From contig NZ_CP022203.1 of the NCBI RefSeq assembly GCF_002305895.1, positions 3,574,501 through 3,638,500 on the forward strand: 64,000 nt of DNA. Direction: 5' to 3'. Within the stretch, counting starts at the first letter, position 1. The number at the start of each line of letters is the position of its first letter. The translations under genes were made by a program, and so were the position numbers. The notes beneath the pieces are model-generated. The model did no database searches. It was not told where the DNA came from and worked only from the letters and a program-made list of their open reading frames with translations. Shown piece by piece: positions 53,770 to 63,985 of this stretch. Source of the stretch: Corallococcus macrosporus DSM 14697 (GTDB lineage: Bacteria; Myxococcota; Myxococcia; Myxococcales; Myxococcaceae).

Positions 53770-55638
53770 ATGGGACGGTCCATGTCCCAGCCCGTCCCCC
53801 ATGCGGTCCCCGAGGAAGCGGCCCCGACGCAGGCCCCGCTGACGTTGCTTCGAATCCCCGGGGACACGCCCGAGGCGCTCGACAGCTTCTGGCTGCGCGA
53901 GGTCTTCCAGGGCGACCGGATGCCTCAGCTCACGCTGAGGGCGGTGCTGCTCGGCGGTGGCATTGGCGCCATCACCTGCGCGACCAACCTCTACGCGGGC
54001 CTGAAGATGGCCGTGGCCTTTCCCGTGGCCATCACCGCCGCGCTGCTGGCGCATACGGCCCATGGGGCGATGCGGCGCGTGGCGCCTGGCGTCGCGGGCG
54101 CGCCGCTCTCTCCGTTGGAGACGTGCTCGGCGCAGGCCGTGGCGTCGTCCGCGGGGTACGCGACGGGAGGCGCCCTGGTGTCCGTGCAGGGCGCGTGGCT
54201 GCTCACGACGGGCAGTCATCCGCCGGGATGGGCGTTGCTCGCGTGGACCTTCCTCCTGTCCGCCCTGGGGGTGCTCTTCGCGGTGCCGCTCAAGCGCAAG
54301 CTGGTGGACCACGAGCAGCTTCCCTTCGCCACGGGCACGGCCGCGGCGGCGACCATCCGCGCGCTGCACGCCACGGGCGCGTCGTCCCGCCCCAGCCTGT
54401 CGATGCTGGGCCTGGGCGGCGGCATCGCGGCGCTCGTCACCCTGGTGCGTGATGGCCTGGGCCGCCTGCCCTACGTCTTCGCGTTTCCGGGGGCGCTCGG
54501 TGGGTGGCCGCTGGAGCGCCTGGGCTTCGGCTTCGAGACGAGCCTCCTTCCCCTGGGCGCGGGCGCGCTGCTGGGCCTGCGGCTCACGGCGTCCTGGCTC
54601 CTGGGCGCGCTGCTCATCCACGGCGTCGTGGCGCCCCGCGTGTTCGCCGCGGGGCTCCTTCCTCCGGAGGGGGACTTCCTCGCGTGGAGTCTCTGGCCCG
54701 GCACCGCGGCGCTCACCACCGCGTCGCTGCTGCACTTCGCCCTGGAGGGGCGTGTGCTGGGCCGCGCCTTGCGAGGCCTCTTCCGGAGGACGCCGGCCAC
54801 GCCGCATCCGGTGGACGCGCTCCAGGTGCCGGGGCGCTGGCTGCTCGCGGGGCTGGCCGTCCTGACGCCCGCCACGCTCGCCGTGGCCAAGGTGGGCTTC
54901 GGGGTGCCCCTGCCACACGCCGCGCTCGCCGTGGCGCTGTCGTTCGTGCTGTGTCTCATCGCGTGTCGCGTCACCGGTGAGACGGACGTCACCCCCGTGG
55001 GGCCGCTGGGGCAGGTGACGCAGATGACCTACGGCGTGTTGCTGCCGCGCAACGTGGAGGCGAACCTCGCCACCGCGGGCATCACCGTCAACGCGGCTTC
55101 TTCGGCGGCGGACCTCCTCAGTGACGTGAAGACGGGCCACCTGCTGGGCGCCCATCCCCGGCGCGTGTTCCTGGCGCAGCTCCTGGGGTGCGCGGTGGGG
55201 GCCGCCGCGGTGGTGCCGCTGTTCTTCCTGCTGGTGCCGGACCGCTCCGCGCTCGGCGGAGAGCGCTTCCCCGCACCCGCGGCGACCGTCACCGCGAGCA
55301 TCGCCCAGGTGCTGGCGTCAGGACTCTCCGGGGTGGAGCCGGGCACCCGCGCGGCGCTCGGCTGGGCCGCGCTCGTCGCCGCCGGGCTCACACTGGCCGA
55401 GCGCATGGCGCCCGAGCGGGTGCGGCACTGGGTGCCGTCGCCCCTGGGCATGGGCCTGGCCTGCCTCCTGCCCGCGTCCACCGCGCTGGGCTTCTTCCTG
55501 GGAGGACTGGCCGCGGCCGTCGCTCGCAAGGTGAGTCCGGGCGCACAGGAGGGGCGGGTGGTGACGCTGGCCGCGGGCCTCATCGCCGGTGAAGGCTTGA
55601 TGGGGGTTGGCATCGTCCTGAGCCAGGCGCTCTGGTAA
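53770..55638 (+). CDS. oligopeptide transporter (OPT) family protein
   Basis: 622 residues from ATG at 53770; the next ATG (53782) is equally possible. It is a polytopic membrane protein with about 14-16 TM segments. OPT features are ITCATNLYAGLKMAVAFPVAI, the KRKLVDHEQLPFATGTAAAATIRALHATG loop, TGETDVTPVGPLGQVTQMTYG and the QLLGCAVGAAAVVPLFFLLVP region. OPT proteins import peptides, iron-siderophore or glutathione-type substrates by proton symport. The substrate is not determined. It begins 4 bases after the MerR stop, so they may form one transcript; peptide uptake could then be under the regulator's control. Confidence 0.88.
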   Translation: MGRSMSQPVPHAVPEEAAPTQAPLTLLRIPGDTPEALDSFWLREVFQGDRMPQLTLRAVLLGGGIGAITCATNLYAGLKMAVAFPVAITAALLAHTAHGAMRRVAPGVAGAPLSPLETCSAQAVASSAGYATGGALVSVQGAWLLTTGSHPPGWALLAWTFLLSALGVLFAVPLKRKLVDHEQLPFATGTAAAATIRALHATGASSRPSLSMLGLGGGIAALVTLVRDGLGRLPYVFAFPGALGGWPLERLGFGFETSLLPLGAGALLGLRLTASWLLGALLIHGVVAPRVFAAGLLPPEGDFLAWSLWPGTAALTTASLLHFALEGRVLGRALRGLFRRTPATPHPVDALQVPGRWLLAGLAVLTPATLAVAKVGFGVPLPHAALAVALSFVLCLIACRVTGETDVTPVGPLGQVTQMTYGVLLPRNVEANLATAGITVNAASSAADLLSDVKTGHLLGAHPRRVFLAQLLGCAVGAAAVVPLFFLLVPDRSALGGERFPAPAATVTASIAQVLASGLSGVEPGTRAALGWAALVAAGLTLAERMAPERVRHWVPSPLGMGLACLLPASTALGFFLGGLAAAVARKVSPGAQEGRVVTLAAGLIAGEGLMGVGIVLSQALW

Positions 55639-55653
55639 CCTTCGGCCCACCCC

Positions 55654-62608: not shown

Positions 62609-62611
62609 CGC

Positions 62612-63985
62612 TCACGGCTTGATGCCGTGGCGCCGGAGCAGCCGGTACAGGTGGACGCGGTCCATGCCGGCGGTGACGGCCGCCTGGGCCACCTTGCCCT
62701 GGTGCTTCTCCAGCAGCGCGCGCAGGTAGCGGCGCTCGAAGTCGTCCACGACGTGGCGGCGCTGGTCGGCGTAGGGCTGCGTGGGGTCCACCTCCGGCGG
62801 GCCGGAGCGGCGGGCCTCTTCCTCGGAGAGCTCCACCGCCTCCTCGAAGACGAGGCAGCGCTCCAGGTAGTTGCGCAGCTCGCGCACGTTGCCCGGCCAC
62901 GCCGCGTGCCGCAGCCTGGCCAGGAAGTCCTGCGTGCGCAGCGCGCCGGTCCGCTCCCGGTCCGCGCCGAGCAGGTCCAGGATGCCCTCCACCAGCATGG
63001 GCAGGTCCTCCGGGCGCTGGCGCAGCGGCGGGAGCAGCAGGCGCAGCACCGCGAGCCGGAAGAAGAGGTCGGAGCGGAAGCGGCCCGCGTTGACCTCCGC
63101 GCGGAGGTCCCGGTGGGTGGCGGCGATGAGGCGCACGTTCACCGGCTGGTACGTGTTGCTGCCCACGCGGCGAATCTCGCGGTTCTCCAGTACGCGCAGC
63201 AGCTTGGGCTGGAGCTCCGCGGGCAGCTCGCCCACCTCGTCCAGGAAGACGGTGCCGCCGTCGGCCTCCTCGAAGACGCCCGCGCGCCGCTGGACGGCGC
63301 CGGTGAAGGCGCCCTTCTCATGGCCGAACAGCTCGCTCTCCAGCAGGTGCGCGGGGATGGCGCCGCAGTCCACGATGAGGAAGGGCGCGTCGCGCCGGGG
63401 GCTGGCCTGGTGGATGGCCAGCGCGGCCTGGCTCTTGCCCGTGCCCGTCTCGCCTTCGAGCAGCACCGTCACGTCCCGGCCGGCCGCGCGCTCCATCATC
63501 GCGAAGCAGCCGCGCATGGCCACCGACGCGCCCACCAGCGTACCGAAGCGCGTGTTCTCCGACAGCGGCAGGCGGTTGTTCTCCGCGCTGAAGTCGAAGC
63601 GCAGCACCACGCGGCCCAGGCGCAGCAGGCTGCCGCTGCGCAGCACGCCCTCCACCACCTGCACCCCGTCGACGATGACGCCGTTGAGGCTGTCCAGGTC
63701 CTTCACCTGGGGGCCTCGCGGGCCGATGCGCACCTCGCAGTGGAACCGGGACACCGTGGAGTCCTCCACGGCGAAGTCGTTCAACGGATGCGAGCCCACC
63801 GAGCACGTGTCCCCGGTGGACTCCCACGTCGTCCCCATCCCGGGCCCCTCCGCCACGGTGAGCCGGAACCGGCGCACGGTGGAGGCGTCGTAGGCCCGGC
63901 GCGCGTGCTCGTAGGGCAGCGTGACGTGCAGCGGTATGTCACCCCCTCCTTCGACTTCCATCCTCCATTGCGATTCGCCCTTCAC
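62612..63985 (-). CDS. FHA-domain sigma-54-dependent transcriptional activator
   Basis: 457 residues from GTG at 63985 (ATG 63961 is another candidate, window edge close). The N-terminal FHA domain (about 40-130, with GSHPLNDFAVED and STVSRFHCEV) binds phosphothreonine peptides. The sigma-54 interaction AAA+ domain has Walker A GETGTGKS (178-185), GAFTGA (225-230), Walker B FLDE near 250 and the arginine finger segment. The C-terminal Fis-type HTH ends with VHLYRLLRRHGIKP. FHA-EBPs are typical of Myxococcus and link Ser/Thr kinases to gene activation. It is convergent with the kinase gene (3 bases), which fits such a signal chain. No receiver domain is present. Confidence 0.94.
   Translation of the reverse strand: MKGESQWRMEVEGGGDIPLHVTLPYEHARRAYDASTVRRFRLTVAEGPGMGTTWESTGDTCSVGSHPLNDFAVEDSTVSRFHCEVRIGPRGPQVKDLDSLNGVIVDGVQVVEGVLRSGSLLRLGRVVLRFDFSAENNRLPLSENTRFGTLVGASVAMRGCFAMMERAAGRDVTVLLEGETGTGKSQAALAIHQASPRRDAPFLIVDCGAIPAHLLESELFGHEKGAFTGAVQRRAGVFEEADGGTVFLDEVGELPAELQPKLLRVLENREIRRVGSNTYQPVNVRLIAATHRDLRAEVNAGRFRSDLFFRLAVLRLLLPPLRQRPEDLPMLVEGILDLLGADRERTGALRTQDFLARLRHAAWPGNVRELRNYLERCLVFEEAVELSEEEARRSGPPEVDPTQPYADQRRHVVDDFERRYLRALLEKHQGKVAQAAVTAGMDRVHLYRLLRRHGIKP

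Follow-up and report, generated by a model that had tools for sequence, protein, structure and literature searches.

A conserved gene module with a proposed kinase-to-sigma54 path and a candidate tandem enhancer in Corallococcus macrosporus

In the 64,000-nucleotide stretch of DNA from Corallococcus macrosporus DSM 14697 that was analysed here (NCBI RefSeq assembly GCF_002305895.1, contig NZ_CP022203.1, positions 3,574,501 to 3,638,500; hereafter the window), five neighbouring genes encode an OPT-family transporter (OPT), two protein kinases (K1 and K2), a Cys-rich lipoprotein (LIP) and an FHA-domain activator of the sigma54 enhancer-binding protein class (EBP). These genes are a conserved module with an arrangement beyond chance, and the 165-base gap between K1 and LIP looks like a promoter. 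At the level of sequence, the conserved module, tandem dyads in the gap and elsewhere, a sigma54-type element, the phased spacing between the two and an association with genes for surface proteins are all apparent. We consider it probable that the locus represents an Esp-like, self-amplifying module leading from Ser/Thr kinases to sigma54, in which the FHA-containing EBP as output would set part of the cell-surface make-up by controlling a regulon of surface genes that includes K2. The genes and DNA elements concerned are the following:

OPT, 53770..55638, plus strand: OPT-family transporter (Pfam OPT, E 3.4e-76, residues 67-631 of 636)
K1, 55654..59493, plus strand: kinase with matches to Pfam Pkinase (8.3e-37), AAA_16 (4.9e-10, STAND-like ATPase) and TPR_12 (1.5e-10) and a knuckle-like CxxC..C N-terminus
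UAS1, 59489..59507, no strand: dyad TGTAGC-N7-GTCACT, overlapping the K1 stop codon
UAS2, 59520..59538, no strand: dyad TGTGAC-N7-GCTACA, 31 bp from UAS1
-24/-12 element of sigma54 type, 59594..59609, plus strand: TGGCTCGGCACATGCT, 105 bp downstream of UAS1, start to start
LIP, 59659..61221, plus strand: Cys-rich lipoprotein with signal peptide and lipobox LSGC at residues 19-22, predicted to reside on the outer surface or in the periplasm
K2, 61235..62608, plus strand: predicted Hanks kinase (Pfam Pkinase, 1.1e-36) starting 13 bases after LIP, with a conserved C-terminal domain of no recognised family
EBP, 62612..63985, minus strand: activator of the architecture FHA - sigma54 AAA+ - Fis-type helix-turn-helix (Sigma54_activat 9.6e-67, FHA 2.3e-11, HTH_8 1.4e-5), convergent to K2

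An earlier note, made from the sequence of the window, had described five genes in about 10 kb, namely an importer, two Hanks kinases with a Cys-rich lipoprotein between them and an FHA-sigma54 activator. All five open reading frames were found near the coordinates given there, and reading frames, Pfam matches and lipobox agree with this description. The locus lies in a single-contig genome of 8.97 Mb, which is designated G000 and belongs to the genus labelled g1; other G numbers denote compared genomes, L numbers loci and further g numbers genera. For the comparison of gene order, the locus was taken from 63 genomes and its genes were located by tblastn, which yielded 62 orthologous loci from eight genera (L085, in which LIP is split over contigs, is excluded from synteny, gap and dyad counts). 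K1 lies less than 400 bases 5' of LIP in 61 of the 62 loci, as does LIP less than 200 bases 5' of K2, with G043 (order K1-K2-LIP) being the sole exception in both counts. A convergent EBP is found no more than 600 bases away in 55 testable loci out of 61, and no more than 6 kb away in 58. OPT, for which 57 loci are testable, precedes K1 by at most 100 bases in 39 of them (24/24 in g1, 2/2 in g5, 10/12 in g6, 2/7 in g8, 1/1 in g9, 0/6 in g3, 0/4 in g7 and 0/1 in g20) and is an optional member of the module. Second copies of the module with 34 to 50% identity in K1, LIP and K2 are present in G003, G007, G042 and, without OPT, in G041 (L040-L043). All five genes are also found in the distant genus of G009 (L156), there on one strand in the order EBP-LIP-K2-OPT-K1 and at 31 to 61% identity, while G087 (L088) carries K1-K2 with EBP and LIP on the opposite strand. 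The cluster is thus held together and not scattered in relatives, and that it outlasts duplication and rearrangement speaks for a shared function.

Genome-wide protein searches gave matches to LIP in 68 genomes out of 96 in the family and, in a phylum set of 195 genomes, in 69 (one of these matches, a weak one, lies outside the family), and K2 was found at E <= 1e-60 in 66 of the 96. Only the best first-look candidates were scored (per genome at most 15 for LIP in the family set, 17 for K2 and 7 for LIP in the phylum set), so that paralogue counts from these searches are lower bounds. LIP occurs at 68 to 78% identity in Myxococcus sp. CA023, M. vastator, M. xanthus AM003 and one Comamonas-labelled record. 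Record BNCN01000010.1 (L003), titled Comamonas sp. KCTC 72670, contains the complete module at 68-95% identity, and its organism label looks wrong.

The gap between K1 and LIP and the convergent orientation of the activator had been regarded as weaknesses of the cluster in the earlier note; both, however, turned out to be conserved features. The gap comprises exactly 165 bases (59494-59658), and an alignment of the gaps from g1, g5 and g8 displays conserved blocks within otherwise diverged DNA. Two of these blocks are 19-bp dyads of the form TGTRRC-N7-GYYACA, a pattern first spotted by visual inspection of the window sequence and the aligned gaps and then tested elsewhere. With dyads accepted within two mismatches and counts made over the window and the 62 loci (n = 63), UAS1, whose first base lies 4 bases 5' of the final base of the K1 stop codon, is present at the same place in 58 gaps, and UAS2 in 52, mostly 31 bp from UAS1 (range 31 to 35). 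Half-sites vary in pairs at several loci, as in TGTGGC/GCCACA of L012 (g5) or TGTAAC/GTTACA of L014 (g8), a comparison read without statistics. In g9 the dyad pair sits before the relocated LIP, and in the K1-K2-EBP-LIP cluster of G087 (L088) the LIP homologue is preceded by tandem dyads at a distance of 31 bp and by an element resembling -24/-12. The third conserved block, TGGCYCR-N4-RTGCW or close to it, is of sigma54 type and lies about 50 bases before the LIP start codon. A sigma54 score of at least 10 of 12 is reached in 37 of the 63 gaps compared to 0.76 expected from dinucleotide shuffles, and a score of at least 9 in 51 of 63 when a fixed 200-base stretch after K1 is considered (in G043 the stretch next to LIP; this second count has no shuffle control). 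Given tandem dyads and a sigma54-type promoter in this position, LIP and K2 probably constitute a separate activator-driven unit and look like targets of EBP, not like the start of a chain. Hence, of the chain from surface signal to kinase to FHA activator put forward in the earlier note, the parts list stands, while its beginning at the lipoprotein is probably wrong; LIP is more likely an output than a sensor.

Beyond the locus, the exact dyad occurs eight times in G000 versus four times for a control pattern. Six places lie outside the LIP gap, with a tandem pair at 1.03 Mb counted as one, and five of these six are accompanied by a second dyad, with no more than two mismatches, at a distance of 32 or 33 bp. 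A search for tandem dyads at a spacing of 32 bp only, allowing up to three mismatches, gave four sites versus no control in G000 and 55 sites versus one control in nine relatives, where sites of related genomes are partly orthologous and the counts are not independent events. All 55 sites of the relatives and five of G000 were combined into a set of 60, in 45 of which a sigma54 element (score at least 9, either strand) is located 75-130 bp from the dyad start, compared to 135 of 3000 random centres in the same DNA (4.5%). The offsets gather at 91-94 (12 sites), 102-104 (14) and 112-118 bp (17), plus 82 and 123, and are thus about one helical turn apart, with a phase coherence of 0.74 versus a simulated 99.9th percentile of 0.46. 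By simple rule-based detection, a lipoprotein start follows downstream at 21 of the 45 dyad sites, whereas among 1317 sigma54-like sites remote from dyads only 38 have one. A signal peptide of any kind follows at 30 of the 45 and at 112 of the 1317 sites, and usable reading frames are available at 35 and 592 of them, respectively. The downstream genes include several, in more than one genome, for lipoproteins of roughly 270 residues that look alike by eye. Others encode a lipoprotein of 591 residues, an M36 metallopeptidase, a di-haem oxidoreductase and a VWA protein, and one gene of G077 is a paralogue of LIP. This association suggests that tandem dyads with sigma54 elements mark a regulon rich in lipoproteins and secreted proteins. 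Single dyads, moreover, number 570 versus 270 for the control in the genera with dyads before LIP (g1, g5, g6, g8 and g9; 53 genomes), an excess carried by g1 and g6, and 44 versus 111 in the 32 genomes from genera that lack an orthologous module.

Several individual dyad sites were seen in other settings. In L155 (G011 contig 49, 8666-8715), from a distant genus, two exact dyads 31 bp apart stand just upstream of a lone LIP homologue, with a -24/-12-like element 80 bp past the dyads, before or inside the gene. Upstream of EBP itself, at L061:5367 and L060:13263 (minus strand), tandem dyads are combined with a sigma54-like element, which suggests autoregulation of EBP in these two genomes. In G068 (L133), the same combination precedes a frame recognised by motifs only as a Hanks kinase, a similar N-terminus being present in G063 (L124); the predicted regulon may therefore feed another kinase. 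At L089:9660-10401, two exact dyads 32 bp apart precede a Cys-rich lipoprotein of CGDGxC repeats, and no -24/-12 element was recognised in range.

The proteins of the module divide into membrane-associated and apparently soluble ones. OPT, with 11 hydrophobic segments, some of them overlapping, is the sole multi-spanning protein, and its residues 359-611 have a relative of known structure in the iron-phytosiderophore transporter 7wsr of the PDB (E 9.4e-14). K1, K2 and EBP are devoid of any 19-residue segment with a mean Kyte-Doolittle hydropathy of at least 1.6, as found in OPT and in the LIP signal peptide, and appear to be soluble. In K1, the Hanks motifs (glycine loop, VAIK Lys, HRD and DFG/DLG) are intact in the window and in nearly all aligned rows: an alignment of 65 rows, which excludes four K1 rows, contains DFG in 37, DLG in 25 and gaps in three, as well as HRD in 60, HHD in two and gaps in three. 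Its conserved N-terminus, MRCPxCHRRL...CP, is a possible Zn knuckle. In the ATPase part, Walker B (VLLVDDAH) is kept, and Walker A reads GDVGHGASR here and GK(S/T) in many relatives. LIP matches no Pfam family above cut-off; of its 21 Cys, 20 are shared by 90% or more of the 69 sequences aligned, and the lipobox is missing in some module paralogues. K2 possesses the Lys, HRDLK and DFG, combined with a degenerate glycine loop (HYRGPVSTLY; 61307-61354, residues 25-40). The loop is likewise degenerate in the listed orthologue variants and in module paralogues, whereas that of the PktA5-like kinase introduced below is more normal, and K2 is possibly a weak or partner-dependent kinase. EBP carries GAFTGA at residue 225 and the Walker A motif GETGTGKS at 178, both intact, within its AAA+ domain and is, together with its Fis-type helix-turn-helix, a sigma54 enhancer-binding protein by its features.

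The kinase pair has counterparts in the same genome. Among 116 kinase-domain matches (a few genes give two), K1-type kinases occupy three places including K1 at E <= 1e-40 (150 of 164 candidates scored) and K2-type kinases likewise three including K2 at E <= 1e-60 (17 of 165 candidates scored). Three loci contain one kinase of each type, and all three also encode an FHA output protein. One of these, L038 at about 5.34 Mb, consists of K1-K2 and a convergent FHA-EBP 66% identical to EBP, with neither OPT nor LIP. The other, L036 at about 1.12 Mb, comprises a K2-type kinase, an FHA-PAS-PAS-HisKA-HATPase-REC protein, OPT, a K1-type kinase and a small lipoprotein, with identities to the window of 37% for OPT, 36-40% for the K1-type and 44% for the K2-type kinase. 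This is the architecture of the espAB locus flanked by pktA5 and pktB8, which L036 probably represents. The corresponding genes of Myxococcus xanthus encode the FHA histidine kinase EspA, the OPT-like transporter EspB and two Ser/Thr protein kinases and thus make up the same parts list. The window locus likewise brings together OPT, one kinase of each of the two types and an FHA output protein. It differs from espAB in gene order and strands and, above all, in that the FHA output is a sigma54 activator and not the hybrid histidine kinase EspA; hence, it is an Esp-type variant and not an esp locus. Of the five OPT matches in this genome, two further ones (L086 and L087) showed no such module nearby, the nearest kinase-like frame in L086 being about 5 kb from OPT. 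By analogy, K1, K2 and OPT would act together on EBP. In L036 itself, a lipoprotein with NGLST repeats (L036:8402-9415, minus strand; Pfam GLTT, E 3e-9) and a LIP-like N-terminus lies just downstream of the PktA5-like kinase; neighbouring pairs of this kind occur in G024, G057 and G062, and this lipoprotein may be an overlooked part of the esp locus.

Based on these features, the module could operate as follows. An input would enter through OPT as the only component that spans the membrane, or the AAA/TPR half of K1 would sense a ligand in the cytosol. K1, which appears to be soluble and retains its kinase motifs, would thereby be activated and work with K2, in analogy to the EspB-PktA5-PktB8 group. 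Phosphothreonine on a kinase activation loop or on another substrate would then engage the FHA domain of EBP, switching EBP on or releasing it. EBP would bind the tandem TGTRRC-N7-GYYACA dyads and drive sigma54 RNA polymerase at the -24/-12 elements, which are seen mostly 91 to 118 bp downstream and helically phased. Its targets would be its own LIP-K2 unit, with presumed positive feedback via K2, and the regulon rich in lipoproteins and secreted proteins; LIP would mainly be an output and possibly also a feedback sensor. A wider proposal, on which we are evenly divided, is that of a multi-copy class of myxobacterial modules in which OPT and a fixed kinase pair (K2 and the STAND-type K1) feed an FHA output that can be exchanged, a histidine kinase in Esp and a sigma54 activator here, the activator version reading a tandem 19-bp enhancer phased to sigma54 promoters, reprogramming surface lipoproteins and secreted proteins and reinforcing itself via K2.

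A number of observations weigh against the proposed path and, together with the partial orthology of the tandem sites, have to be set against it. On the input side, OPT adjoins K1 in none of the ten g3 and g7 loci and is also missing from the second module of this genome (L038), while the Walker A Lys of K1 (57178-57222, residues 509-523) is replaced in this species and some relatives. At the step from kinase to activator, FHA domains that bind phosphothreonine contact it through the Arg of G-R, through S-x-x-H and through N-G; EBP retains SRFHC and NG, but has Ser at the position of this Arg in every orthologue with the region aligned (three rows of the alignment are blank over the FHA domain). 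In three of four g7 genomes, moreover, EBP is located 25-53 kb from the locus. With respect to the promoter, g3 and g7 have no second dyad downstream of K1 that this pattern would recognise, and the first one is drifted or missing there in most cases, and 12 of 16 g6 genomes keep both dyads with no recognisable -24/-12 element before LIP. As to the regulon, 15 of the 60 tandem sites are without a sigma54 element in range, G036 gave one tandem site versus one control, single dyads are level with the control in g8 (58 versus 56) and g9 (4 versus 4), and in g3, g7 and g20, where the module is present (11 genomes), they even fall below it (36 versus 81).

By its position EBP would be the obvious protein to bind the dyads. 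It is nevertheless conceivable, if doubtful, that they belong to a different sigma54 activator such as a paralogous FHA-EBP, and that EBP merely stands beside a target gene. Candidates abound, with 42 matches to EBP at E <= 1e-60 in this genome including the 66% identical protein of L038. The recognition helix of EBP bears on this question: it reads DRVH in g1, g5, g6, g8 and g9 and DRVY in g3, g7 and g20, and DRVY goes along with drifted dyads in g3 and most of g7. Yet, canonical or near-canonical dyads coexist with DRVY in G087 (a tandem before LIP), in G080 (g20) and at the first dyad of G035 (g7), which speaks against our assignment. Due to these three cases, the covariation of helix and dyad is only a hint, and another EBP could bind such dyads. 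On the other hand, EBP accompanies the dyad-bearing gap in most loci, as given by the 58 of 61 within 6 kb, and also in duplicated or rearranged modules (L040, L088), and dyad enrichment tracks the genera with dyads before LIP.

It appears unlikely that LIP is the surface sensor signalling through K2 and K1 to EBP, with control of LIP by EBP being only feedback. The location of LIP between both kinases in nearly all loci would fit such a role, a lipoprotein regulating a sensor kinase is known from QseG-QseE (PMC6075780), and the esp-like locus has its shorter LIP-like lipoprotein adjoining the K2-type kinase. However, K1 and K2 are without a predicted membrane span, so that LIP cannot reach either of them without a partner, its promoter type is common to other, mostly unrelated genes for lipoproteins and secreted proteins, and in L038 no LIP is placed between K1 and K2. 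Hardly credible, finally, is the idea that a generic nutrient transporter, kinases and an activator were kept as neighbours by descent without a common function. A PfkB-type neighbouring gene is also syntenic in many g1 genomes, and some genera have no OPT at the locus, both of which speak for this idea. It is countered by the five genes staying together after rearrangement (L156), and most of them after duplication (L040-L043), by the one-to-one pairing of K1-type and K2-type kinases in three loci of this genome and by the conserved regulatory DNA before LIP-K2.

For the preferred kinase-to-sigma54 path, each constituent has known relatives. FHA-domain enhancer-binding proteins of M. xanthus, by title the same protein class, have reportedly been described by Jelsbak et al. 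in 2005; EBP has the architecture FHA - sigma54 AAA+ - Fis helix-turn-helix with no receiver domain. PknK-type kinases carry AAA/TPR regions, and K1 resembles them in combining a kinase with a STAND-like ATPase and TPR. PknB-GarA reportedly provides an FHA partner for a kinase via activation-loop docking. K1 differs from both in its conserved N-terminal CxxC..C and in being paired with a K2-type kinase at each of its three loci here. A link of sigma54 to lipoproteins and other exterior components was described by Francke et al. 2011 (PMC3162934), who share this theme with the regulon of the window; FHA does not occur in the main text of that work, and its passages on the theme contain no Ser/Thr kinase module or dyad enhancer. 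Precedents hence exist for FHA-EBPs, for kinases of Esp type and for control of the exterior by sigma54. Their combination in one module, the enhancer code and the regulon could not be recognised among the results of a literature search of partial coverage, from which absence from print is not claimed. To our knowledge, few myxobacterial kinases or EBPs have a known path from kinase to promoter. The locus offers a complete candidate for such a path, including an explicit, testable DNA code and a list of targets. Moreover, the developmental timer Esp may, in the light of this locus, belong to a wider module family with interchangeable outputs, which would help to explain the transporter and flanking kinases of Esp.

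Some candidate features were rejected. Locking of the K1 stop codon by UAS1 was given no weight, as K1 ends with TAG or TAA in 58 of 62 loci, but OPT does likewise in 39 of 42. Co-loss of EBP and dyads in three g7 genomes was dropped because EBP was found elsewhere in those genomes. A cyclase-like domain was considered at the C-terminus of K2 and in the middle of K1 and was discarded for K2: a 13-sequence profile of the K2 domain found no cyclase in the PDB, its best match being ribosomal protein L1 (E 0.023, regarded as a chance hit), and its members gave no match to a cyclase family of Pfam. AlphaFold models from four sequences each were poor, with a mean predicted local distance difference test score of 35.7 for LIP and 36.4 for K2, and a LIP profile of four sequences gave nothing convincing against the PDB (best E 0.086). 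Upstream of the module, a gene for a MerR-family regulator (52926..53765, plus strand; Pfam MerR_1, E 3.7e-16) ends 4 bases 5' of OPT as a context gene; it is found at only part of the orthologous loci and is possibly cotranscribed with OPT in the source genus.

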